64,000 nucleotides of DNA from Gammaproteobacteria bacterium (GTDB lineage: Bacteria > Pseudomonadota > Gammaproteobacteria > JAADGQ01): contig JAKITI010000001.1 of the NCBI GenBank assembly GCA_021648145.1, positions 62,001-126,000 on the forward strand, given 5' to 3'. The position numbers were made by a program, and so were the translations under genes. Numbering within the stretch: position 1 is the stretch's first letter; each line of letters starts with the position of its first letter. The notes below the pieces were generated by a model. That model was given only the letters and a program-made list of their open reading frames with translations, did no database searches and had not been told where the DNA came from. Of the stretch, positions 12,520 through 27,249 are shown one piece after another.

Positions 12520-13602
12520 ATGGATGGATTGATAAAAAATCATAAAAAACAACCTAAATATTTGTTGAAACTTTTATTGATTAATTTGTTTCTCTTGCCT
12601 TGCCTGATCTATGCGAATAGCGCACCACAGGTGAAAGATAAACCTCTGTCACCACTTGATTTACAATTGGAACCTATCCAGCCCCTTTTTTCTCTAAAGG
12701 GGCTTAATCCAGATAAGACTGCTTTGGGCGAAAGATTATTTAATGAACCTCGCTTGGCGCACAATAATGATATGTCCTGTGCCAGTTGTCACATTTTGAA
12801 AAGTGGCGGCGCTGATTGCCCAGAAAAAGCTCAGGGGCAGGATGGTGTTGAATTGGGAGCTAATAGTCTTACCGTATTCAATAGCAGTCTTAACCATCGC
12901 CTGTTTTGGGATGGACGTGCCAAAACTCTGGAAGAACAGATCGACTTTGTAATCACTGCTCCTCATGAGTTTGCGACTCAGTGGCCAGTATTGATCAGCA
13001 AACTCAAACGGGATCGCGAATATCAAAAGAGCTTTGGGACATTATATTCCGATGGTATCACTGCAGCTAATGTTCGTAATGCTATCGCGACCTTTGAGCG
13101 TAGTTTAATCACTGTAAATTCACGTTTTGATCAATACTTGCGCGGTGATGTTGATTCGATCAATGCACTGGAAAAGTCTGGTTACCGATTATTTAAGGAC
13201 TATGGTTGTATTGCTTGCCATCAAGGGCGCAATGTAGGTGGTAATATGTTTCAAAAACTCGGTGTAATTGAAGAGTTTTTTGATGATGACAGACTTTCAG
13301 GAAAGAGGGGTTTAGGGCGCTTTAATGTGACCGGCCAAGAGCGGGATCGTTATGTATTTCGTGTGCCCTCCTTGCGATTGGTTGCGCTGACCTCCCCCTA
13401 TTTTCACAATGGTTCAGCCGAAACTCTCTATGATGCAGTCAAAATCATGGCTAAGTATCAGTTGGGGCGCACCATCCCGGATGCTGATATTGAACACATT
13501 ATTGCCTTTCTCAAGACCTTGCCTGGTGAGTATCAAGGGCAACCACTATCCAGAGTTTACGAGGAAACCACATTCAGCGAACCTGAAGGGCAAACGCGAT
13601 GA
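12520..13602 (+). CDS. Diheme cytochrome c peroxidase / MauG-family protein
   Basis: 360 residues. An N-terminal hydrophobic export segment (about residues 17-34, ending L-I-Y-A-N) is followed by two c-type heme sites, CASCH at C87 and CIACH at C230. They are spaced as in bacterial diheme peroxidases, with family segments GERLFNEPRL, FWDGRA and PYFHNGS. A conserved Met in VKIMAKYQLG is a candidate axial ligand. Typical members reduce periplasmic H2O2 with electrons from cytochromes or cupredoxins; MauG relatives modify proteins instead. The stop overlaps the start of the histidine kinase gene by 4 bp, an unusual partner that suggests a sensing link. The nucleotide leader holds a small hairpin near 12469-12492. 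Confidence 0.88.
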   Translation: MDGLIKNHKKQPKYLLKLLLINLFLLPCLIYANSAPQVKDKPLSPLDLQLEPIQPLFSLKGLNPDKTALGERLFNEPRLAHNNDMSCASCHILKSGGADCPEKAQGQDGVELGANSLTVFNSSLNHRLFWDGRAKTLEEQIDFVITAPHEFATQWPVLISKLKRDREYQKSFGTLYSDGITAANVRNAIATFERSLITVNSRFDQYLRGDVDSINALEKSGYRLFKDYGCIACHQGRNVGGNMFQKLGVIEEFFDDDRLSGKRGLGRFNVTGQERDRYVFRVPSLRLVALTSPYFHNGSAETLYDAVKIMAKYQLGRTIPDADIEHIIAFLKTLPGEYQGQPLSRVYEETTFSEPEGQTR

Positions 13603-15254
13603 GGCGATATGCCAAAAAGCCAGGGCATTGGGCTGTCGGTTTCTTGTTGATGGCTGTATTATCGTATCTATATATTAACACTCAGGCCGTTGTTCCTGAG
13701 CGGCATACTCGGGTTATTGATAATCTGAGACAGTTACACCAGCTTGATGCCGCCTTGAATCAGGATTTCCTTAAAGTGCGCTATGGTCTACTCGCTCATT
13801 ACGATACGCTCATGGATACTTCGATAGAGATTATTGCAGTTCAGAACCGACTAAATAACACCTTGAAAGCGGCTGATATGTTTCAGTACGATGATATCAA
13901 TCTGAACCAAAAAAAAGTGATAGAGGCATTTGAACATAAGGTTGATTTATTAGAGCAGCTTAAGTCACAAGTTTCTGTTCTCAAAAATTCACTGAATTTT
14001 CTTCCCATCGCTGCCACTCAGACAAAAGCCTTGGCTCTCACTAGAGATGAGGCTCATCCACTGATTAAATACATCAATCTTCTGGAGCACTACACTTTGG
14101 CATACAACCTCACCAGCGACCAAGTGTATCCGGGGAAAATAGAGGCGCTGTTACCACAATTGCTTCATTTGCAGAGCCAGTGGGATACGCCTTTGCAGCA
14201 GCGTATCAACAATCTTATGACGCATGTAAAAGTGATTGTGCAACAAAAAATCAAAGTGGATTCTATACTGCAAGAGCTCATGACTTTGCCTACTTCTCGA
14301 GAGCTGAATTCATTATACAATGTCTACCAGCGTCATAATGAAAGCTTGCTCATCAAAGCCAATGGTTATCGATTGGCACTCTACTTGATATCAATATTAC
14401 TACTCGCCTATGTGGGGTACATTTTATTCAAACTTGAAGGCTTGGTTGTTCAGCGAACTCTTGAATTGGCTGATACTAACGCATCTCTCAAACAAGAAAT
14501 TATTGAACGCAAACAGATGGAGAAACAACTGATTCAAGCTAAAGAATCTGCTTTGAAAGCCAATAGTGCCAAGTCAGAGTTTTTAGCCAATATGAGTCAC
14601 GAGCTGCGGACACCTCTGAATTCTATCATTGGTTTTGCCGGAATCATGAAGAGTGGTATGGCCGGAAAGGTGAATGAGGAGCAGGCTCGTCAATTGCAGA
14701 TGATTTATGGCTCTGCCAGCCATTTGCTGGAGTTGATTAATGATATTCTGGACCTATCCAAAGTTGAATCAGGCAAGTTGAAAGTTATCAAGGAAGCCTT
14801 TGAACTGATGCCGTTGTTAGAAGAGATCAAGGCCTTAATGATGGCTCAAATAGGCTCTAAAGATCTATCTTTAAAGCTTGTAGGTCATGCTCCAAAAATT
14901 GTGTATACCGACCGTGGTAAGTTGCGTCAAATATTGTTTAATCTCATGGGGAATGCGATTAAATTTACCGAGCGGGGCAGTGTCACGCTAGTTTGTCGAC
15001 AAAAAAACCATGATGTGGTGTTAGAAGTCGTGGATACGGGGATCGGTATTAGTGAAGAGGATCAAGGTAAAGTTTTCGGTGCTTTCGAGCAAGTCGATAC
15101 CCGTACAGAGCGAGAGTACGAAGGCACTGGGTTAGGGCTGGCTATCAGCCAACGTTTTGCCAAGCTTTTAGGGGGTAAAATTACAGTGCATAGCCAGCTC
15201 GGTAAAGGCTCTACTTTCCGTATCGTACTGCATGGCGTATTTGTGAATAATTAA
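13599..15254 (+). CDS. Membrane sensor histidine kinase coupled to the peroxidase
   Basis: 551 residues. TM1 at about 12-29 and TM2 at about 259-279 enclose a periplasmic region of about 230 residues predicted as all-helical; it looks like a double all-helical (DAHL-like) sensor domain, though I cannot confirm that by search. A short coiled coil (about 285-325) leads to HisKA with SHELRTPLNS, phospho-His 334, and an HATPase domain with FNLMGNAIKF, DTGIGIS and GTGLGLAIS. No receiver is fused; a separate receiver gene follows. Start ATG overlaps the peroxidase stop (ATGA), so the two are translationally coupled. The likely job is to sense a periplasmic redox or ligand state linked to the peroxidase. 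Confidence 0.88.
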   Translation: MRRYAKKPGHWAVGFLLMAVLSYLYINTQAVVPERHTRVIDNLRQLHQLDAALNQDFLKVRYGLLAHYDTLMDTSIEIIAVQNRLNNTLKAADMFQYDDINLNQKKVIEAFEHKVDLLEQLKSQVSVLKNSLNFLPIAATQTKALALTRDEAHPLIKYINLLEHYTLAYNLTSDQVYPGKIEALLPQLLHLQSQWDTPLQQRINNLMTHVKVIVQQKIKVDSILQELMTLPTSRELNSLYNVYQRHNESLLIKANGYRLALYLISILLLAYVGYILFKLEGLVVQRTLELADTNASLKQEIIERKQMEKQLIQAKESALKANSAKSEFLANMSHELRTPLNSIIGFAGIMKSGMAGKVNEEQARQLQMIYGSASHLLELINDILDLSKVESGKLKVIKEAFELMPLLEEIKALMMAQIGSKDLSLKLVGHAPKIVYTDRGKLRQILFNLMGNAIKFTERGSVTLVCRQKNHDVVLEVVDTGIGISEEDQGKVFGAFEQVDTRTEREYEGTGLGLAISQRFAKLLGGKITVHSQLGKGSTFRIVLHGVFVNN

Positions 15255-16827: not shown

Positions 16828-17208
16828 ATGGTAACTCAAAAAAAACCACCTGTTTTTCTTAATCTACTAAAGATTAAACTTCCATTGCAAGGCATCTTGT
16901 CAATTTTTCACCGTATTTCTGGTGTCATACTTTTTCTTTTTATTCCATTTTTCATCTATTTTTTTGAACGCTCGTTGCAAGGGGAAGCCGGGTTTAATGA
17001 GGTCGTTTCCATGTTGGATTCAACCACTGTTAAACTTTTTATTGCATTGACTTTCTGGGGGTTATCTCATCATCTATTTGCAGGAATTCGTTATTTGCTT
17101 CTTGATTTTGATGTGGCAATAGACAAGAAAGCTTCACGGCTAAGTGCGCAGATTGTATTTATTTTAGGCTTTGTTATTTTTCTTTTCACTTTGGGCGCTC
17201 TATTTTGA
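16828..17208 (+). CDS. sdhC: Succinate dehydrogenase cytochrome b556 subunit
   Basis: 126 residues with three membrane helices. The N-terminal PLQGILSIFHRISGV (Ser and Arg of the quinone site) and the heme-ligand segment SHHLFAGIRYLLLD are typical of SdhC. It anchors the SdhAB catalytic domain to the inner membrane and, with SdhD, binds heme b and ubiquinone. First gene of sdhCDAB; overlaps sdhD by 4 bp. Confidence 0.95.
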   Translation: MVTQKKPPVFLNLLKIKLPLQGILSIFHRISGVILFLFIPFFIYFFERSLQGEAGFNEVVSMLDSTTVKLFIALTFWGLSHHLFAGIRYLLLDFDVAIDKKASRLSAQIVFILGFVIFLFTLGALF

Positions 17209-17543
17209 ATACCTTAATGAGTGGACTCCGTGCGTGGGTGATTCAGCGAATCAGTGCTGTTTATTTGGCGCTATTTATTATTTATCTGTTTTTTCATTTC
17301 ATTTGTCATCCCCCAGCTGATTTTTATGCATGGCAACTCTGGTTGTCAAATCCTTGGGTATTTGTCGCCAGCGCTCTATTTATTGCTGCTCTTTTATTGC
17401 ATGCCTGGATAGGTGTTCGTGATGTAATTATTGATTATATCCATCCTGTCTGGTTACGATTTACTGCATTAACATTGGCTATGACCAGTTTAATTGCTAT
17501 GGGAATATGGTTCGGACGGGTATTACTAGGGATGACATTATGA
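17205..17543 (+). CDS. sdhD: Succinate dehydrogenase hydrophobic membrane anchor subunit
   Basis: 112 residues, three membrane helices. [11 protein letters not shown] near the start and [14 protein letters not shown] (heme-ligand His and quinone-site Asp/Tyr) identify SdhD. The start at 17205 overlaps the sdhC stop and its own stop overlaps the sdhA start (ATGA at 17540), which shows a tightly coupled operon. Confidence 0.93.
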
Positions 17544-19333
17544 CGCTTTCAAAAAACAGATTGGCAATAGATAAATTAGAGCGTCGAAAATTTGATACTT
17601 TAGTGATCGGCGCAGGCGGCGGTGGATTGCGTGCCGCTATGCAGATGGGCGAGACGAGCGCGGATGTAGCGGTTGTTTCAAAAGTATTCCCTACACGCTC
17701 ACATACCGTTGCAGCTCAGGGTGGTATCAATGCGGCACTGGCTAATGTTGTGCCCGACAGTTGGCACTGGCACATGTACGATACAATTAAAGGCAGTGAT
17801 TATTTAGGTGATCAAGATGCCATTGAGTATATGTGCCGCGCTGCATCACGGCTTGTAATCGAGCTGGAACACGCGGGTGTTCCTTTTTCACGCCTGGAAG
17901 ATGGCTCTATTTATCAGCGCCCCTTTGGTGGGCAAAGCCAGAACTTTGGGGGTGAACAAGCGGCTCGAACATGCGCTGCGGCAGACCGTACAGGCCATGC
18001 TATTTTGCACACGCTGTACCAACAAAATATTCGAGTAAAAACTCATTTTTTTGATGAATATTTCGCGCTGGATCTGATTAAGAGTGAGGAAGATGAAATT
18101 CTTGGCGCAGTCGTTATGTCGATTGCGACAGGGGAAGTGTTGATCATTGAAGCAAAAACCACGTTGTTGGCCACAGGGGGAGCAGGTCAAATTTTTCGCA
18201 CCAATACCAATGCCATGATTAATACGGGTGATGGTTTGGCGATGGCTTTACGAGCTGGTATTCCATTGCAGGATATGGAATTTTTTCAGTTCCATCCGAC
18301 TGGCATTGCTGGCAAAGGAATGTTGATCAGTGAAGGTGTTAGGGGTGAAGGTGGGTATCTCGTTAATTCAGAAGGTGAGCGTTTTATGGAGCGCTACGCA
18401 CCCCATGCAAAAGATTTGGCCAGCCGGGATGTGGTGAGTCGTGCAATTTTTATGGAAGTTCAGGAGGGGCGTGGTTGTGGCTCGGGTAAAGATCATGTTT
18501 TGCTCAAACTTGATCATTTAGATGCCGAAGTGATTCGCAAACGTCTGCCCGGTATTCGTGATATGTCGATGACGTTTATGAATATTGACCCGATTGAAGC
18601 GCCAATACCCGTCTACCCAACAGCTCACTATACGATGGGTGGAATTCCGACAAATCGTCACGGTCAGGTGGTTGTGCCTATGAAACATGGTGCAGAAGAG
18701 CCGGTGCCAGGGTTATATGCTGTTGGGGAGTGCGCCTGTGTCTCTGTGCATGGAGCGAATCGCCTGGGAGGAAACTCTCTATTGGATATTGTTGTTTTTG
18801 GTCGTGCAGCAGGCAGCCATATTACCGATTATTTGAAAGAGCACCGATATCATAAGCCACTCAATAATGAGAGTGTTGAGAAGGCTTTGGAGCGATTGGC
18901 TCGCTGGGATCAAGAGGGTGATGGCGAGAGTATTGATAGCTTGCGAAATAGATTGCAACAAACCATGGAAAAATATTGTGGTGTCTTTCGCACAGATGAG
19001 ATTTTAAAAGAAGGCGTTGAAAAAATTTCCAAAATTGCAGCTGATCTGGATGGAGTCTATTTAACCGATCACAGTCAAGTTTTTAATACGGCTCGAATTG
19101 AAGCACTAGAGCTGGAAAATTTGATCGAAAATGCATTGGCGACTGTGATCTCCGCACAGGCTCGAACGGAAAGTCGTGGAGCACATTCACGTATTGATTA
19201 CCCTGAGCGGGACGATGAACATTGGCTTAAACATAGCCTTTATTTTAAAGAGGGGCGGAAGCTGGATTACAAACCTGTACGTATGAAACCACTCACAGTC
19301 GAAAGTTTTCCCCCTAAGCCCCGAGTCTATTAA
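17540..19333 (+). CDS. sdhA: Succinate dehydrogenase flavoprotein subunit
   Basis: 597 residues from the ATG at 17540, preferred over an upstream in-frame ATG at 17507 that would sit inside sdhD. Flavoprotein motifs: [12 protein letters not shown] (dinucleotide fold), [14 protein letters not shown] (His that binds FAD covalently), [20 protein letters not shown] (substrate site) and the catalytic Arg in SRDVVSRAI. It oxidises succinate to fumarate in the TCA cycle and passes electrons to SdhB. Normal length, no defects. Confidence 0.97.
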
Positions 19334-19334
19334 T

Positions 19335-20030
19335 ATGCGCTTTTCAATTTATCGTTACAATCCGGAAAAAGACGAAGCACCTTATATGCAAGAGTATGAG
19401 CTGAAAGATGTTCGCTCTGACATGATGTTGCTTGAAGCGCTGTTGAAATTGAAAGAGCAGGATGAATCGCTTGGTTTCAGGCGCTCATGTGGTGAAGGTG
19501 TTTGTGGCTCAGATTCGATGAATATCAATGGTCGAAATGGCTTGGCCTGCATTACACCGCTATCAAGTTTGAAAGAGCCTGTAGAGGTTCGCCCTTTGCC
19601 AGGTGCTCCTGTGATTCGTGATCTTATTATTGATATGGATACGTTTTACAAACAATATCGTGCCACAAAGCCCTATTTAATGACTAAAGATCCACTGCCT
19701 GAGGTTGAGCTTAAACAAACGCCTAAAGAACGGGATCGGCTGGATGGATTATATGAGTGTATTTTGTGTGGCTGTTGCTCGATGTCATGCCCGTCATTTT
19801 GGTGGAACCCTGATAAATATTTAGGGCCTGCGGCACTATTGCAGGTGTCACGGTTTTTAGAGGATAGTCGTGATCAGATGGCTGAAGAGCGGCTTAGCAA
19901 TCTGGATGGCCCGTATAAATTATTTCGTTGTCATACTGTGATGAACTGTGTCGATGTCTGCCCTAAAGGGTTAAATCCAGCCAAAGCCATCGGGCACGTT
20001 AAGAAAAAAATGCTGAAGCATTCATTGTGA
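19335..20030 (+). CDS. sdhB: Succinate dehydrogenase iron-sulfur subunit
   Basis: 231 residues. The N-terminal 2Fe-2S ferredoxin domain has RRSCGEGVCGSDSMNING and a following Cys in LACITPL. The C-terminal domain has the 4Fe-4S and 3Fe-4S ligands in CILCGCCSMSCPSFWW and CHTVMNCVDVCPKGLNP. It carries electrons from SdhA FAD to the quinone in SdhCD. Starts one base after the sdhA stop. Confidence 0.97.
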   Translation: MRFSIYRYNPEKDEAPYMQEYELKDVRSDMMLLEALLKLKEQDESLGFRRSCGEGVCGSDSMNINGRNGLACITPLSSLKEPVEVRPLPGAPVIRDLIIDMDTFYKQYRATKPYLMTKDPLPEVELKQTPKERDRLDGLYECILCGCCSMSCPSFWWNPDKYLGPAALLQVSRFLEDSRDQMAEERLSNLDGPYKLFRCHTVMNCVDVCPKGLNPAKAIGHVKKKMLKHSL

Positions 20031-20051
20031 TTTTCCTGACAGGAATATAAT

Positions 20052-20177
20052 GTGAGTGAAAATACAGAAAAAATAGATCCCAATACAATTGATAGCCTAG
20101 ATGAACTGCTTGATTATGTGCATCATGTTGGGAAACTCAATCAAAAGCCAATTTTCAGAATCGAAGAATACAGTTAA
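20052..20177 (+). CDS. 41-residue hypothetical protein or truncated gene after sdhB
   Basis: A GTG start at 20052 with AGGA about 8 nt upstream opens 41 codons ending at 20177. The product is acidic at first (SENTEKIDPNTIDSLDELL) and ends DYVHHVGKLNQKPIFRIEEY-S. It lacks the features of SdhE. The helical start followed by an abrupt end after a conserved-looking GKLNQKPIFRIEEY stretch suggests either a genuine microprotein or the N-terminal remnant of a longer gene whose remainder is gone. I do not recognise the family. Confidence 0.4.
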   Translation: MSENTEKIDPNTIDSLDELLDYVHHVGKLNQKPIFRIEEYS

Positions 20178-20260
20178 TATTTAGCGGGTCTTTTAATGGT
20201 GCACTGATGTTGAGTATCCGTTATTACTAATCAATGACTTGCGATAAGCCAACAAAGAGA

Positions 20261-20299
20261 CGTGTCGTGCAGAGTGTGACTACCAAGAGGCACGATATG
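20261..20299 (+). other. Long-loop stem upstream of yaaA
   Basis: Positions 20261-20270 pair with 20290-20299 (10 pairs, two of them G-U, core TCGTGC/GCACGA) around a 19-nt loop. It lies about 34 nt before the yaaA start in a 155-bp spacer without other features. It could be an mRNA leader structure. No conservation evidence is available. Confidence 0.25.
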
Positions 20300-20332
20300 A
20301 TTATGTTTTGAATTTTAGCCACGAGCTTTTTT

Positions 20333-21103
20333 ATGTTATTAGTAATTTCACCCGCGAAAACCCTTGATTATGATACGAGCCCTCAAACATCTGAATATTC
20401 TATTCCAGACTATTTAGATGAGGCTGAAATGTTAATTAACCGAGTAAAAGAATACTCTCAGCCTGAAATTATGGAGTTAATGGTTGTAAGTGAAAAAATT
20501 GCCAGGTTAAATTTTGAACGCTTTAAAACATGGCGTATGCCCTTTACACCTAAAAACTCAAAACAGGCTGTGCTGGCTTTTAAAGGTGATGTTTATTCTG
20601 GGCTTGATGCAGAAACATTTTCTGCAAAAGATTTTGAGTTTGCGCAACAACATTTGCGTATTTTATCAGGGCTGTATGGTTTGCTTAGGCCGCTGGATTT
20701 GATGCAACCTTATCGTTTGGAAATGGGGCGCAAGATTGATAATGATCGAGGTAGAAATCTGTATGAGTTCTGGCGTAATGTTGTGACAGAGGGTATTAAT
20801 GCACAGCTAAAAAAAATGGGGTCTAATATTCTGGTTAACCTTGCATCCAATGAGTATTTCAAGGTGATTAACACCAAAATCCTTAACGCAGAACTGATCA
20901 CACCAGCCTTTAAAGATTATAAAAATGGCCAATATAAAATGATGGGTGTTTATGCTAAAAAAGCACGTGGACAGTTCAGCCGCTTTGTCATTAAAAATCA
21001 ATTAGAAGAACCGAGTGAACTTAAAAATTTTAATGTCGATGGTTATCAATTCAATGAAGAGTTGACGGCTGGAAACAGCTGGGTTTTTACTCGAAAAAAT
21101 TAA
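20333..21103 (+). CDS. yaaA: Peroxide stress protein YaaA (DUF328)
   Basis: 256 residues, full length for the family. It opens MLLVISPAKTLDYD and carries the conserved segments FKGDVYSGLDA, LSGLYGLLRPLDLMQPYRLEMG, LVNLASNEYF and KKARGQFSRF. In E. coli YaaA lowers intracellular free iron and protects DNA during H2O2 stress, and the structure has a DNA-binding helix-hairpin-helix-like fold. Monocistronic here; a good stem-loop follows at 21155. Confidence 0.95.
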   Translation: MLLVISPAKTLDYDTSPQTSEYSIPDYLDEAEMLINRVKEYSQPEIMELMVVSEKIARLNFERFKTWRMPFTPKNSKQAVLAFKGDVYSGLDAETFSAKDFEFAQQHLRILSGLYGLLRPLDLMQPYRLEMGRKIDNDRGRNLYEFWRNVVTEGINAQLKKMGSNILVNLASNEYFKVINTKILNAELITPAFKDYKNGQYKMMGVYAKKARGQFSRFVIKNQLEEPSELKNFNVDGYQFNEELTAGNSWVFTRKN

Positions 21104-21154
21104 TGATTTGAATTCAGGTGGCTAAATAGTGCTATAACGGTCTGTTTTTTTACT

Positions 21155-21181
21155 TCATTTGTGCCGCAATCGCACAAATGA
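21155..21181 (+). terminator. Stem-loop downstream of yaaA
   Basis: A perfect 10-bp inverted repeat, TCATTTGTGC (21155-21164) and GCACAAATGA (21172-21181), with a 7-nt loop. It is followed by GGCTTTTAATG, which contains a short T-run. It lies about 50 bp after the yaaA stop, so it probably ends the yaaA transcript, although the T-tract is weak. Confidence 0.45.
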
Positions 21182-21329
21182 GGCTTTTAATGAGTATAAG
21201 ATCGCCTAAGGTGCAAAAGCAGTTACGCACCTCTTATTATTATCTAGGCAAAGATCGTAAAAGGAAGAACGCTCCAAAGCCATAAAAATCAGCCATATTA
21301 CATTCAGCTGATTTGAAGGTTAAGACGTA

Positions 21330-22412
21330 ATGAATTTATTCTTCAGGTTTTTTCTTGGTACGCTATTATTAATGAGCATCCCCATGCACTCTCATGCGGA
21401 AAGGAACTTTACCTTTAACTTCAACTCGGCTGACCCTGATTTTGGTGATGATCCGCTTGTCGACGTTCGCTGTAATCGACCCAATGAAAGCAATGCAGGT
21501 TGTGGGGGTGGCATGATGAGCTGGGGTGTTGATGATGGTTCAACTTTCTTGCAAGAGTATTTTGAAGTTGATGGTGAGCTTTATTACCACATTGTTGTTG
21601 GTTCGCCGGAGCAGGGCTTTGCCCAAGAAACTTATACCAAAGTCGGCTCTAATGTTTATTGGGGGAGCGGAGGCGGCATGATGGGAGGCGGTGCAAATCG
21701 ACCCATTTTAACCTCTCCCAGCAAAGGTGATGGTAGCTGTGGTGGTGGTATGGGAGGAATGGGAGGGGGAGGTAACTTTATCAGTAACTGCAATGCAGGT
21801 GATCCGCTTGGTCTTAAAGGGAATGATAACCTTTTTACAGGCAACGCAACCGGCAACCCTTCCAGAACTATTATGTATCAGGTTTTAGGTGGAAGCTGGG
21901 ATGCTGTCACTGAAACCTGGGAATGTAAAGAGAGCGATGACTATTGCCAGGAGTTTATTAAAGACTCTTTTGAATACAAACCAAAACTTACGCAAACGAT
22001 CAATGATGAAGAAGAAAATATGCTGACCTACTTTGAGTTTGACATGAGCAACAGCACTTATGCAGAGAAAGATAAAGTTGCCAGCACCATAAACACACTG
22101 ATAATTACTGACCCTGACATGCCCATGGGAATGGAAAAAGAGGGTGATTTTGACTTTGCCGAATTTACCAACCAAGCCAACAAACCAGGTTCTAATTCAA
22201 CGCTCACTGCGGGCATGTATACATTCACTCCTGGCAGTGAAGATTTTGCTGGCGGCCAAGATGTAGATGCCAATGCCTATGATTACATTGATGGTGATTT
22301 CAACCTTGATCAGGACTGGACACTCTATTACGATCCAGAGCAAAACAATTACGGAGTCGGTGGGGGAGGAAACACGGGCGGCGGTGGCATGATGGGCGGG
22401 GGAAGAAGGTAA
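21330..22412 (+). CDS. Secreted Gly/Met-rich protein of unknown function
   Basis: 360 residues. A clear signal peptide (hydrophobic core FFLGTLLLMSIPM, cut after S-H-A near residue 24) precedes an acidic, aromatic-rich mature protein. Gly/Met clusters recur: CGGGMMSWG (about 53-61), SGGGMMGGG (about 112-120), CGGGMGGMGGGG (about 134-145) and a C-terminal GGGGMMGGGRR. Cysteines occur in pairs around two of them. Between lie YFEVDGELYYHIVVG, YTKVGSNVYW and an Asp/Asn-rich end. No membrane anchor, lipobox or sorting tail was seen. Gly/Met clusters with Cys could bind soft metals such as Cu(I), or be structural. Monocistronic, convergent with rlmKL. Not recognised. Confidence 0.65.
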   Translation: MNLFFRFFLGTLLLMSIPMHSHAERNFTFNFNSADPDFGDDPLVDVRCNRPNESNAGCGGGMMSWGVDDGSTFLQEYFEVDGELYYHIVVGSPEQGFAQETYTKVGSNVYWGSGGGMMGGGANRPILTSPSKGDGSCGGGMGGMGGGGNFISNCNAGDPLGLKGNDNLFTGNATGNPSRTIMYQVLGGSWDAVTETWECKESDDYCQEFIKDSFEYKPKLTQTINDEEENMLTYFEFDMSNSTYAEKDKVASTINTLIITDPDMPMGMEKEGDFDFAEFTNQANKPGSNSTLTAGMYTFTPGSEDFAGGQDVDANAYDYIDGDFNLDQDWTLYYDPEQNNYGVGGGGNTGGGGMMGGGRR

Positions 22413-22413
22413 G

Positions 22414-24621
22414 TCAGCCCCTTGGTTTGATCTCCCAACAGTTGTGAATCTTGCTATTACGTGAAAAATCTTTTGGAATCGTTTGTTGAGTAATATCTTT
22501 AATCATCAAATCACTCAGCGCTTCATGATCCATTTTGAATTTTCTAAAGTTATTTGAAAATATCAGTGTGCCATCGGCAGTCAATAAGTGAGCGGCTTGT
22601 TTGATTAATTCAACGTGATCCTTTTGAATATCAAAATTACGCTCCATGCGTTTGGAAGTAGAAAATGTGGGCGGATCAAGAAAGATTAATCCGTAACGAT
22701 TCCATACATTGCTCTCTCCATACTTTTCTTCTAGCCATTGCAGGCAGTCTGTTCGAATGAATGAGTGGTTGGTTTTATCAAAACCATTCAACTCCATGTT
22801 CCGTTTTGCCCACTCATAGTAGGTTTTTGACATGTCAATTGTTGTGGTTGATTTTGCGCCACCCATGGCGGCGTGAACGCTGGCACTGCCCGTGTATGCA
22901 AATAGATTTAATACGCGCTGATTTGCCGCCAGTTTGCCGATCAGGCTGCGGGTTATTCGGTGATCAAGAAACAGCCCGACATCCAGGTAGTCTGTAAAAT
23001 TAACTAAAAATCGGCATGGACCTTCAGTGATCTCAATAAAATTTTCATCAGAGGCTTGTTTTTCATATTGTGCATTGCCTTTTTGGCGACGGCGGACTTT
23101 GAAAAACAGTTGCTCCATTGGAATTTCTAATAGTCCAGGCAATACTGCGAGCGCTTCACGTAAACGGGTCTTGGCTTTAGCTGGGTCAATGGTTTTGGGG
23201 GCTTCGTATTCCTGGACGCAGATTCGTTTTTTGCCATTCACATCATGGAACAGGTCAATTGCTAATGAATATTCAGGTAGATCCGCATCATAAATTCGAT
23301 AACAAGTGATACTTTCACGCGTTGCCCATCGTTTCAGTGTTTTCATGTTTTTGCGAAGGCGATTGGCAAACATTTGCGCGCCGTCACTGAGCTCTTCCGG
23401 TTTTGCCGGTTTTGGCATCGAGACACCGCCCGATAGAACGGGGCGTTCGATAAACCACTTTTCTTGCAGGTCAAACCTAAGCAGTTTGCAAGGCAGTGCC
23501 CCATTAAAAAGAGGATGTTGTTTGTGAGGACGCATTCCCATACGTTTAGCGAGATCAGGGTTCCCCGTAAATACGGCCGCTTGCCAGCCTACAAAATGCT
23601 CTTTTAACTTGTCGCCCAGATCGGCATATAAAACAGTCAGCTCTTCAATTTCACCCAAGCGCTCACCATAGGGTGGGTTGACAATGAGCAGGCCGGCCTG
23701 AGCACCCGCTGGAGCTTCTAACACAGATAGGTCACGTTGAAGAATATGGATGTCATTAATCAAGCCGACTGCATCAACATTTTCAATAGAGGCACGGACT
23801 GATCGACGATCTGTATCAAAGCCAAATATACTTGGCTTTTCTTTTAACTGGCCTTGATCACGGCGATCTAGAGCTTCGTTGCGTAACGTTTGCCAAAGTG
23901 GCGCATCATGTTTTTTCCAGCCGGTAAAACCAAAAAAGTCACGTTCCAGACCGGGTGCAATATCCATGGCTATGAGCGCCGCTTCAATAAGAAATGTGCC
24001 TGAGCCGCACATTGGATCAAGCAATGAGCCACCTTTTTGTGAAATTTCTGGCCAACCCGCGCGTAATAAAAGTGCTGCAGCCAGGTTTTCTTTCAAAGGG
24101 GCTTTGATGTTTTCAATCCGATAGCTGCGTTTATGAAGGCTATCGCCGGAAAGATCAATACTGACATTCGCCTGATCTCGATTCAGATGTACATTAATAC
24201 GCAGATCAGGCCGGTGGGTGTCAATTGATGGGCGCTCATTGCAGCGGTCTCGAAACTGATCGACAATCGCATCTTTGACTTTCAACGCAGCAAAATGGCT
24301 GTGGGTAATGCGTGAACTTGAAAGGTTGAAATCAATCGCCAACGTATCATAAGCACTCATATGTTCAGACCAGTCGATCTCTTGAATATTTTCATAGAGT
24401 GCTTCGGGCGTTGGTGCGTGAAAATTGACCAGAGGCAGTAAAATTCTATTTGCAGTACGTGACCAGAGGCAGGCGCGATAGGCTGTTTCCAGTGTTCCCT
24501 CAAATAAAACACCTGCGGGCTGTTCCTTGAGGTTTGTGGCTCCAAGTGTTTTTAGTTCATCAAATAAAAGCGAAGCAACGCCCTTGGGCGCAGTGGCGAA
24601 TAGTGGGAAAGTTGAGGTCAT
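22414..24621 (-). CDS. rlmL: Bifunctional 23S rRNA methyltransferase RlmKL (m2G2445 / m7G2069)
   Basis: 735 residues, the gammaproteobacterial fused form. An N-terminal THUMP domain is followed by the RlmL methyltransferase (SAM motif LLDPMCGSGTFLIEAALIA, catalytic VNPPYGERLG). The C-terminal RlmK half follows (SAM motif LNLFAYTGSASVHA, catalytic LDPPTFSTSKRM). It modifies 23S rRNA during large-subunit assembly. The stop lies next to the convergent secreted-protein gene; the PerM-type gene is 6 bp upstream on the same strand, so the two may be cotranscribed. Confidence 0.96.
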   Translation of the reverse strand: MTSTFPLFATAPKGVASLLFDELKTLGATNLKEQPAGVLFEGTLETAYRACLWSRTANRILLPLVNFHAPTPEALYENIQEIDWSEHMSAYDTLAIDFNLSSSRITHSHFAALKVKDAIVDQFRDRCNERPSIDTHRPDLRINVHLNRDQANVSIDLSGDSLHKRSYRIENIKAPLKENLAAALLLRAGWPEISQKGGSLLDPMCGSGTFLIEAALIAMDIAPGLERDFFGFTGWKKHDAPLWQTLRNEALDRRDQGQLKEKPSIFGFDTDRRSVRASIENVDAVGLINDIHILQRDLSVLEAPAGAQAGLLIVNPPYGERLGEIEELTVLYADLGDKLKEHFVGWQAAVFTGNPDLAKRMGMRPHKQHPLFNGALPCKLLRFDLQEKWFIERPVLSGGVSMPKPAKPEELSDGAQMFANRLRKNMKTLKRWATRESITCYRIYDADLPEYSLAIDLFHDVNGKKRICVQEYEAPKTIDPAKAKTRLREALAVLPGLLEIPMEQLFFKVRRRQKGNAQYEKQASDENFIEITEGPCRFLVNFTDYLDVGLFLDHRITRSLIGKLAANQRVLNLFAYTGSASVHAAMGGAKSTTTIDMSKTYYEWAKRNMELNGFDKTNHSFIRTDCLQWLEEKYGESNVWNRYGLIFLDPPTFSTSKRMERNFDIQKDHVELIKQAAHLLTADGTLIFSNNFRKFKMDHEALSDLMIKDITQQTIPKDFSRNSKIHNCWEIKPRG

Positions 24622-24627
24622 AATGAT

Positions 24628-25704
24628 TTATAAAGTTGATTTTGAAGAGGGCGGAACTTGAGTGTGAGCGGCTTCTTCTGAGTCGGCAGTTCCTAGCAAT
24701 ACGGCAAGCCAGTGTGTTTCATCTCGGCTATCAAGTGCAATTTTTATAGTCATTGTTAACGGTACTGAAAGAAACATTCCTACAGGTCCCAATACCCATC
24801 CCCAAAATACTAACGATAAAAATACAACTAATGGTGATAAGCCTAATCCACGCCCCATGAAGCGCGGCTCCAATATATTTCCCACAACAACGTTGACAAC
24901 CAAAAAGCCAATTGCTGTACTGATGGCAGCGCCAGTTCCTAGCTGAACTAATGCAAGTAATATGACGGGAATGGCCGCAATAATTGAACCAATATTGGGA
25001 ACAAAATTGAGCATAAATACCAGCAATCCCCAAAGAAGAGGGTAGTCTACGCCAATAATAACAAGCCAAAGAGTGATTAAAACAGCGGTCAGAAGGCTGC
25101 TAATACTTTTAATAGCCAGGTAATTTTTTACTGTCGAGGTGAATTTTTGGAATGGGATGAGTGAATCTTTTTGATCGCCTAGTGCAATACGCAGCTTTCT
25201 TGGGAAGCTGGATGTTTCAAACAGAATAAAAACAACAGTGAGCAAAATCAAAAAGACATTCCCTAAAGCGCCCCCGAGGCCATTGAGTGTTTGAGCCGCC
25301 AGCTTCATTGCAACAGCGGGGTCAAATGCAGTGGTTAACACCTCCAACGATATTTCAAAACCGAAACTTTCAGCCCACACTCTTGCTTGTGTCATCTGCT
25401 CGGTGAGGCGCTCCTGATAAAAGGGTAGGTCGGCCGAAAAACTTTTAAGTGAAGACCCGACCAGAGCACCCAATCCGAACACAACGATAATGACACTTGT
25501 GATAACAACGATCATGGCGAGTGAGCGGGGGAGCCCCCGATCTTCTAACCAAAATAGAGGCGGCGCACTGATGATGGCAATAAATATAGAGAGCAAAAAA
25601 GGGATGATAATAGGTTTGGCCGCCTGCATTCCAGCCACAACAATGACGAACGCAGCGATATAAAGTAATACAGGAATTCCCGCAGTATATTTGAGTTGTG
25701 CCAT
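24628..25704 (-). CDS. AI-2E family (PerM/YdiK-type) inner membrane permease
   Basis: 358 residues with about seven membrane helices. A first pair of helices (about 10-80) is followed by a soluble helical section (about 85-150). The conserved core contains LLWGLLVFMLNFVPNIGSII and a C-terminal LEPRFMGRGLGLSPLVVFLSL, the signature of this family. Members include TqsA (AI-2 export) and Na+/H+ antiporter-like proteins, so the substrate is not assignable. It lies immediately upstream of rlmKL. Confidence 0.88.
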   Translation of the reverse strand: MAQLKYTAGIPVLLYIAAFVIVVAGMQAAKPIIIPFLLSIFIAIISAPPLFWLEDRGLPRSLAMIVVITSVIIVVFGLGALVGSSLKSFSADLPFYQERLTEQMTQARVWAESFGFEISLEVLTTAFDPAVAMKLAAQTLNGLGGALGNVFLILLTVVFILFETSSFPRKLRIALGDQKDSLIPFQKFTSTVKNYLAIKSISSLLTAVLITLWLVIIGVDYPLLWGLLVFMLNFVPNIGSIIAAIPVILLALVQLGTGAAISTAIGFLVVNVVVGNILEPRFMGRGLGLSPLVVFLSLVFWGWVLGPVGMFLSVPLTMTIKIALDSRDETHWLAVLLGTADSEEAAHTQVPPSSKSTL

Positions 25705-25957
25705 TTTTCTATCTTTTACTCTTAGGGTTTACTTGTTTTAGTGATTGATCTGCTGAAGCGAATAATGAATCAATTCGCCACAATAAGGAAGTATGAAAGG
25801 GTTTGTTAATTACTCAAGAAAGAAAATCAAAGCTCGTTTTGTTGTTTTGTTATACAGTAAAGTCTATAACTTAAGTTGCATACGGTGCTTGCTCAATATG
25901 GCAGGCTATGTTTTGTTATAAATCTGTTTTTGACGTATTAAGCTGGGGAGCTAGGTA

Positions 25958-26905
25958 TTGGAGTATAAAGATTACTACAAAATTATGGGGGTTGAGCGTA
26001 CAGCCAGCCAGAGTGATATCAAAAAGGCCTATCGTAAACTGGCACGTAAGTTTCATCCCGATGTGAGTAAAGAGACGAATGCTGAGGAGCGCTTCAAGGA
26101 GGTCGGTGAGGCTTATGAAGTGCTGAAGGATCCTGAAAAACGGGTCGCTTATGATCAGTTGGGTGCCAACTGGAAGGCGGGGCAGGATTTTAATCCTCCA
26201 CCAGACTGGAACCAGGGCTTTGAGTTTCATGGGGGTGGTTTTACTCAGGCTGATGCTTCCAATTTCAGTGATTTTTTTGGTTCACTTTTTGGGGACGGTT
26301 TTGCCGCAGGAGGGCATGCGCGTGATCCTCACTTCAATATGCGCGGTGAAGATAGTTATGCCAAGGTTGTTATCGACCTTGATGATACATTTCACGGTGC
26401 CAGCCGTACCATTACGTTACGTCATACTGTCATGGGTGCTGATGGCCGACCTCATCTGGAGAATCGCTCTCTTAATGTTCGCATTCCCAAGGGTGTGTAT
26501 CAGGGGCAGCATATTCGTCTTGCAGGTCAGGGAGATCCCGGCGCAGGTCAAGGCAAGGCGGGGGATCTCTATCTTGAAGTCGAATTCAGACCACATCCGT
26601 TTTATCGGGTCGATGGACGGGATATTTATCTTGATCTGCCGATTGCTCCATGGGAGGCTGCTTTGGGTGCCTCGGTCAATGTGCCTACCCCAGGGGGCAA
26701 AGTTCAGTTAAAGATTCCTGGTAACTCCAAATCTGGAGCCAGAATGCGCCTGAAAGGGCGAGGAATTCCTGGTAAAGCTGCGGGTGATCTATATGTGGTG
26801 CTGCAGCTCGCTCTACCACCGGCAAGCAGTGATGAAGCCAAGGCGTTATATAACGAAATGGCGCAGAAACTGGCCTTCAATCCACGCGCTACATTGGGAG
26901 TTTAA
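25958..26905 (+). CDS. cbpA: CbpA-type DnaJ co-chaperone (curved-DNA-binding protein)
   Basis: 315 residues. J-domain at 1-70 with HPD at 33-35, a Gly/Phe-rich linker with [12 protein letters not shown], then the two-part DnaJ C-terminal substrate domain without the zinc-finger region, as in CbpA. It stimulates DnaK ATPase; CbpA of E. coli also binds curved DNA in stationary phase. TTG start at 25958 is supported by GGGGAG seven nt upstream and by the [11 protein letters not shown] alignment. First gene of cbpA-cbpM-trxC. No heat-shock promoter consensus was seen in the 253-bp divergent spacer. Confidence 0.93.
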
Positions 26906-26907
26906 AA

Positions 26908-27249
26908 ATGACTGTAGAATCCTATCTGTTTAGTGGCAACATCGTTGAAGAGGAGCTTGAATTTACTTTGGTGGAGCTCAGCCATGCCTGCGCCGTCAAT
27001 GCTGAATGGCTCATTATGTTAGTGGAAGAGGGTGTGCTGGAGCCACAACAGCAGACAAAATCTGAGTGGCGCTTTAGTGGCCCCACGTTAAAGCGTATAC
27101 GTACCGTGCAACATTTGCAGCGTGATCTTGGCGTTAATCTGGCGGGTGCGGCACTGGCGCTGGATCTGCTGGGAGAAGTTGACCGCTTGCGGGCACGGCT
27201 AGCAGTGTTGGAGGAACCTATGATGAATAGAAGGGGTGAATCAATATGA
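26908..27249 (+). CDS. cbpM: CbpM-type chaperone modulator (MerR-like)
   Basis: 113 residues, 2 bp after cbpA. It has the MerR-like helix-turn-helix layout FTLVELSHACAVNAEWLIML, then the RTVQHLQRDLGVNLAGAALALDLL helix common to CbpM, and a short C-terminal helix. In E. coli CbpM binds the CbpA J-domain and blocks both DnaK stimulation and DNA binding. The stop overlaps the trxC start by 4 bp. Confidence 0.9.
   Translation: MTVESYLFSGNIVEEELEFTLVELSHACAVNAEWLIMLVEEGVLEPQQQTKSEWRFSGPTLKRIRTVQHLQRDLGVNLAGAALALDLLGEVDRLRARLAVLEEPMMNRRGESI

Follow-up and report, generated by a model that had tools for sequence, protein, structure and literature searches.

Stretches in which glycine runs are interspersed with methionine are known from the C-terminal tail of GroEL, where Met recurs every two or three residues. 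In one report (PMC12571646), these tails are described as polyproline II helical and are compared with abductin, the elastic hinge protein of bivalves, which is itself Gly-rich with Met and for which, by way of the same comparison, polyproline II is reported. CueO-type multicopper oxidases and small periplasmic copper proteins are exported and Met-rich, and some of them carry GGM runs (L128, L131, L141 and L142 among the stretches analysed here). The protein that is the subject of this analysis is encoded in a 64,000-nucleotide stretch of gammaproteobacterial DNA, hereafter the window, and shares something with each of these systems. Its fourth Gly/Met run lies at the chain end, as in GroEL; GroEL, however, is cytoplasmic and unrelated in sequence, whereas the window protein carries four runs on a scaffold that would be exported. 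Abductin is an animal protein, and the likeness of short runs within a folded domain to it is one of sequence alone. From the copper proteins the window protein differs in that neither a Cu-oxidase domain nor copper neighbours were seen and in that its nearest relatives are free of Met runs. A further comparison is with genes beside those of giant surface proteins (two-partner secretion, FG-GAP, fn3), which several members of the protein's family directly precede; the window gene is not so placed, and no domain is common to the window protein and the TPS exoprotein or ShlB.

The open reading frame starts with ATG, and its features are collected in Table 1. In the initial annotation the product had been described as secreted, and its N-terminus does read by eye as a Sec signal peptide, with cleavage before ERNF, which points to export and would leave a mature chain of 337 amino acids containing 56 Gly and 15 Met. 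The six cysteines are located at positions 48, 58, 137, 154, 199, and 206. The upstream neighbour at a distance of 226 bases is yaaA, by its Pfam name the gene of a peroxide stress protein; on the other side, rlmKL is convergent and one base apart, so that the gene has housekeeping neighbours and no surface giant beside it. The stem preceding the gene is weak evidence of a terminator, the stretch holding two such sites against a shuffle mean of 1.5. With an E limit of 10, neither Cu-oxidase nor any other Pfam domain was matched by the window protein, there were 0 matches at the curated cut-offs of Pfam and NCBIfam, and plasmid and phage records searched with the protein gave no match. No copper gene was seen by eye at window positions 17000-27000 or among six window proteins that were scanned. 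Elsewhere in the window (12520-15254), a di-haem cytochrome c peroxidase gene overlaps the gene of a DAHL-domain histidine kinase.

Table 1. Features of the window gene and of its upstream region, in window coordinates
Feature	Position	Strand	Basis
12-pair stem then CTTTTAATGA, terminator-like, between yaaA and the gene	21153..21183	+	weak
Gene of exported beta-rich protein, 360 aa	21330..22412	+	ORF and homologues
Signal peptide, residues 1-23, MNLFFRFFLGTLLLMSIPMHSHA	21330..21398	+	read by eye
First Cys pair, Cys48 to Cys58	21471..21503	+	alignment
Run 1, residues 59-63, GGGMM, loop 1, directly after Cys58	21504..21518	+	sequence, loop position
Run 2, residues 114-121, GGGMMGGG, loop 2	21669..21692	+	sequence, loop position
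Second Cys pair, Cys137 to Cys154, enclosing run 3; nearest relatives carry CRSGFGPGNFVLSAC and CRSGGSFVLSGC there	21738..21791	+	alignment
Run 3, residues 138-148, GGGMGGMGGGG, loop 2	21741..21773	+	sequence, loop position
Third Cys pair, Cys199 to Cys206	21924..21947	+	alignment
Conserved core, Lys211 to Met239 (K211, K217, Q222, F235, D238, M239)	21960..22046	+	alignment
Run 4, residues 350-358, GGGGMMGGG, C-terminal tail	22377..22403	+	sequence, loop position

The initial annotation had recognised no relatives and had proposed a sensitive homology search. That search revealed that the window protein belongs to an unnamed multicopy family of exported, beta-rich bacterial proteins, with seven loci in the window's own genome. 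With the window protein as query, 9 of 94 sampled genomes were matched, its own genome counted; a 29-member profile matched 22 of 369 genomes of the class, and a 56-member profile, applied to a phylum-wide sample of 299, matched only the window's genome and, marginally (E 3e-4), one other. The family profile, to which the window protein itself contributed, matches it with 315.6 bits (E 5e-95). A scan of genome contigs yielded the two loci L051 and L052, the former very likely from genome G386 because L174 encodes an identical protein. When the fetched stretches were searched for ORFs, 82 different members were obtained. Two fragments below 190 aa were dropped before alignment, loop tables and a quick tree, leaving 80 rows of at least 190 aa, and a careful tree as well as the residue counts were made on 79 rows, after removal of one further fragment. 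For the 29 members of the first alignment, the best matches were found at E 0.016 in Pfam (two members) and at E 0.045 in NCBIfam (one member); a C-type lectin, the best profile match among PDB sequences, was rejected at E 1.2. The family, being nameless and hard to search for, was not found in the literature, and a text search for GGMGG gave no title naming such a family among the matches listed; the passages cited here from PMC12571646, PMC11840665 and PMC5526929 do not deal with it either. In G001, the only other genome of the genus in the sample, the YaaA and RlmKL proteins are 83% and 93% identical to those of the window and are encoded on separate contigs; no family member is present within the 1,500-base flanks of either gene, and none of the family members of that genome groups with the window protein.

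The four Gly/Met clusters had been said to look selected rather than a product of low-complexity drift, and they are indeed non-random: 33 residues with 8 Met are observed in runs, and when the mature chain was shuffled 20,000 times, no shuffle reached this (means 0.36 run residues and 0.10 Met). With the Gly positions fixed, the 6 Met observed among 13 letters in Gly-dense context were again reached by 0 of 20,000 draws, so Met as well as Gly is enriched. Cys58 and Cys137 abut runs 1 and 3, respectively, both on the N-terminal side, Cys154 follows five residues past run 3, and only RR remains after run 4. Two run DNA patterns searched for in the window's genome occur only in the window gene and, in the case of GMGGMG, in groEL. 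One way in which such runs could arise is neutral drift, by which disordered loops would tolerate Gly-rich low-complexity DNA and Met would be a by-product of GGN-ATG expansion. This we regard as rather unlikely, and a first argument against it comes from the Gly codons of the runs, which are mixed (GGA 9, GGT 8, GGC 8, and GGG 4); the runs therefore did not arise by recent copying of a single DNA unit.

Over the 80 members, with Gly-dense defined as a ten-residue window containing at least six Gly, 490 of the 550 Gly of such windows fall into three places, namely, loop 1 (residues 46-74), bounded by the first Cys and the strand at residue 73, loop 2 (98-162), which precedes a DPL motif, and the tail (from residue 330). 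These places hold 8,691 of the 28,031 residues of the members; the other 60 Gly belong to stretches elsewhere, found in six members. By a Gly/Met triplet count, Met runs are present in nine of the 80 members, that is, in the window protein, the products of the four tandem genes of L047 (9658-15844), L051, L105, L113, and L052, and in all nine they are located in loop 1, loop 2, or the tail. The correspondence between members is by loop and not by residue: the loop 1 run follows the second Cys in the window protein and lies between both Cys in L051, L105, L113, and L047; loop 2 of the window protein accommodates two runs; L052 has neither the loop 1 Cys pair nor a tail run. Members devoid of Met runs have chiefly Ser, Phe, Trp, and Arg as their non-Gly letters in Gly-dense context, counted over the whole chain. 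Other low-complexity tails are found as well, three of the L047 proteins having long Gly- and Thr-rich ones, a point in favour of drift.

The scaffold that carries these loops is conserved. C48, Y85, H87, G91, E100, P159, P177, K211, K217, P218, Q222, F235, D238, M239, G295, Y317, and Y319 are kept in at least 85% of the 79 rows and are all present in the window protein; the polar core residues among them (H87, E100, K211, K217, and D238) hint at a further site in the family. An antiparallel beta sheet is predicted by AlphaFold both for the window protein (pLDDT 65, pTM 0.67) and, from a 56-row alignment, for the compact relative L038 (pLDDT 82, pTM 0.77). In the model of the window protein, pLDDT falls below 50 at residues 60-67, 108-169, and 342-360, which comprise most of the run-bearing stretches, and if low confidence is read as disorder, the loops are predicted to be disordered. 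A Foldseek search of the PDB with both models gave nothing at E 0.001. The best VIA-align Z scores, 8.2 and 7.6, are both to the TOM complex and lie in or near 7 to 8, the range typical of that tool where there is no clear match; many rows show barrels of the outer-membrane type with Z in the middle range, and no barrel claim is rested on them.

At least two Cys are found in loop 1 (46-74) of 74 of 79 members, in loop 2 of 34, and at residues 195-208 of 19. The nearest relatives of the window protein, L039 and L114, with 46% and 45% scaffold identity, contain all three Cys pairs while the Met runs, and the Gly runs with them, are absent. The cysteines, which the initial annotation had drawn into a possible metal site, therefore look like disulfides and not like metal ligands, and a single metal site built of Cys and Met was rejected in view of the persistence of the pairs in these relatives without Met runs. 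Asked of the nearest relatives, the question whether Met is replaced freely while Gly spacing stays has no simple answer, as runs of either letter are missing there.

In a careful tree, from which the loops were excluded (79 rows, 178 columns; support given as ultrafast bootstrap/SH-aLRT), the window protein is grouped with L039 and L114 at 95/95, apart from the other Met-run proteins. In the quick tree of 80 rows, the Met label set against all other rows requires four gains or losses, of which well-supported branches force at least two; the runs would thus have been gained separately, or gained once and lost, the two forced changes being compatible with one gain and one loss. L052 is on a long branch, and its placement is unsure. 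L051, L105, and L113 form a clade with support of 100/100, to which L150, L151, L171, L172, and L173, obtained by searches in two families, were added by similarity and not by a tree. Throughout the eight members of this Met clade, Met is present in each of the three places, with 1 to 7 residues per place (in loop 2 of some rows, one of the Met counted belongs to the scaffold), and Met accounts for 65 of the 93 non-Gly letters in Gly-dense context, while spacing and length of the runs drift and scaffold identity is between 48 and 89%. A strict Gly-dense count gives zero Met in loop 1 of L151, whose match contains internal stops, and in the tail of L171. The trio is joined at 98/92 by L096 and L119, whose loops are Gly-rich with Trp, Arg, and Ser instead of Met. 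The search for relatives that gave 38 matches, of which 18 were excluded (15 genes already in the set, including L174, and, as duplicates, L159 and two pieces of L178), added further rows outside the Met clade; these are mostly without Met runs, loop 1 of L157 being a looser Gly/Met stretch.

It was thus outside the Met clade, in L096 and L119, that Met was found replaced while Gly stayed, and not inside it. Lineages seem to maintain their Met content, which can nevertheless be swapped from one lineage to another, with no fixed geometry, which argues against one built metal site; a loose Met sponge would still be compatible. The absence of runs in the two nearest relatives, their variable length, and the poor prediction of the loops are in keeping with neutral drift, but the occurrence of Met runs in separate branches and the upkeep of Met by all eight members of the Met clade, where it makes up 65 of the 93 letters just mentioned, speak against it. 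As far as sequences can tell, Gly/Met stretches in the same loops of separate branches suggest some role, and to this extent the clusters do look selected.

The motif is by no means confined to this family. As DNA patterns among 94 genomes, GMGGMG was found in 71 and GGMMGG in 9. From the pattern matches 20 Gly/Met stretches were picked by hand, which are a nonrandom sample, and ten proteins were scanned; groEL was found in two stretches, multicopper oxidases in four (L142:2257-3732, L128:2441-3622, L131:2993-4183, and L141:2750-3802), LTXXQ proteins numbered two, and a CusF gene near a run (in one stretch), a cytochrome, a DUF4197 protein, and small exported Met-rich proteins were also encountered. 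Other open reading frames are composed nearly throughout of the three residues Gly, Met, and Ser, or else of repeated GGM and GMY units (L124:9689-10469, L129:1-549, L125:4971-5321, and L130:3422-4600). The window's genome itself has four multicopper oxidase domain matches.

Binding of copper by the Met clusters had been considered from the outset, and a Cu(I) sponge, in which Met pairs (MM, MxxM) would weakly bind and buffer Cu(I) in the periplasm or at the surface, is an explanation that we hold to be unlikely, more so than drift, and its support is indirect. PMC11840665 puts the log K of Cu(I) binding by Met-rich peptides between 5 and 6, and the four oxidases (one of them, L142, from the window's own taxonomic family), the CusF gene, and the two LTXXQ proteins are found among the chosen stretches, although these are a nonrandom sample and the motif occurs also in GroEL and in proteins without any metal label. 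Within the family, the retention of Met in 8 of 8 members of the Met clade would suit a sponge. The scaffold and its cysteines persist without Met runs in L039 and L114, however, Met spacing is not fixed, Trp, Arg, or Ser take the place of Met in L096 and L119, and no copper gene was seen in the part of the window inspected or among the six scanned proteins.

Several relatives adjoin genes of giant surface-type proteins. Directly after family members, FG-GAP giants are encoded in L031 (4-base overlap) and L103 (3 bases apart); in L117 (5204-10329), a TPS exoprotein and then a ShlB transporter, both assigned by Pfam, follow directly, and genes resembling this pair by similarity do so in L048 (1403-6522) and L088 (1858-6963). 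Members also directly precede giants with fn3 domains in L046, comparable proteins in L045 and L106, and a CARDB giant in L089. Among the open reading frames adjacent to members, 17 of 130 have at least 700 aa, against 33 of 692 other open reading frames of the same stretches (Fisher p 0.001), a count that involves a crude choice of reading frames, cases that are partly kin through tandem copies and shared synteny, and ordinary large enzymes such as rlmKL of the window.

Other neighbourhoods recur. A member is found directly before metG on the same strand in L047, L048, L083, L084, L085, L091, L111, L117, and L121, representing four taxonomic families; metG was confirmed by Pfam for L083 alone, and rnf-like genes were seen by eye further on in several cases. 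This site may be the ancestral location of the family. A caspase-domain (Peptidase_C14) gene with Sel1 repeats, assigned by Pfam, lies near a member in L033 (4992-7079), and a gene similar to it in L036 (9497-11554), these two loci being from the window's genome and from the relative in its genus. LysR genes, which by eye resemble oxyR, occur near members in L031 (4218-7463), L051 (1151-5112), and L102 (4140-5054); L031 additionally has a peroxiredoxin-glutaredoxin gene, and L051 has genes for a catalase and a di-haem cytochrome c peroxidase.

Such peroxide genes, together with the position of the window gene after yaaA, would fit an oxidant trap, in which Met of flexible exported loops would be oxidised reversibly and thereby shield the envelope from peroxide; an antioxidant role of exoprotein Met has been argued for Bacillus cereus (PMC5526929). 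We consider this the least probable of the explanations. L031 is itself without Met runs, and peroxide genes are near just two of the nine genes with Met runs, the window gene and L051, whereas L105, L113, the four genes of L047, and L052, inspected by eye, do not. The genus relative has no family member in the 1,500 bases beside yaaA, and where so many gene classes can catch attention, the chance component is large.

The reading we favour, at a probability of roughly 0.4, is that the exported beta scaffold would carry flexible surface loops of the "sticker and spacer" type, and it is favoured because several relatives adjoin giant surface proteins. An exported, disulfide-bonded, antiparallel beta-sheet scaffold would offer three sites for Gly-rich low-complexity stretches, with Gly serving as the spacer and Met as a sticky, soft side chain in flexible surface loops; the Met loops would then engage in weak multivalent contacts at the cell surface, as has been proposed for the Gly/Met tails of GroEL. 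For the window protein, disulfides, surface location, and sticky contacts are what we infer. Against the sticker and spacer reading it has to be held that low pLDDT is also expected where the alignment is thin, that neutral low-complexity sequence would gather in loops too, and that Phe, Trp, and Arg are chemically unlike Met, one common role for all of them being an assumption.

In a wider and still more tentative picture, this new exported family, possibly with a new beta fold, would constitute a display platform on which three loop sites repeatedly evolve Gly-X stretches, X being Met, Trp, Arg, or Ser depending on the lineage, so that sticky or elastic surface loops would be tunable and the Met version would perhaps also serve as a soft-metal or oxidant sink. 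Summarizing, what had been an orphan protein is now one of a family of 80 collected members of at least 190 aa, the sites of which at which Gly gathers can be named. The family provides a natural comparison, in which one scaffold is found with Met, with Trp, with Arg, or with no Gly stretch at all, and the role of Gly/Met runs, which GroEL, some multicopper oxidases, and small exported proteins possess as well, becomes approachable by loop swaps on one scaffold.
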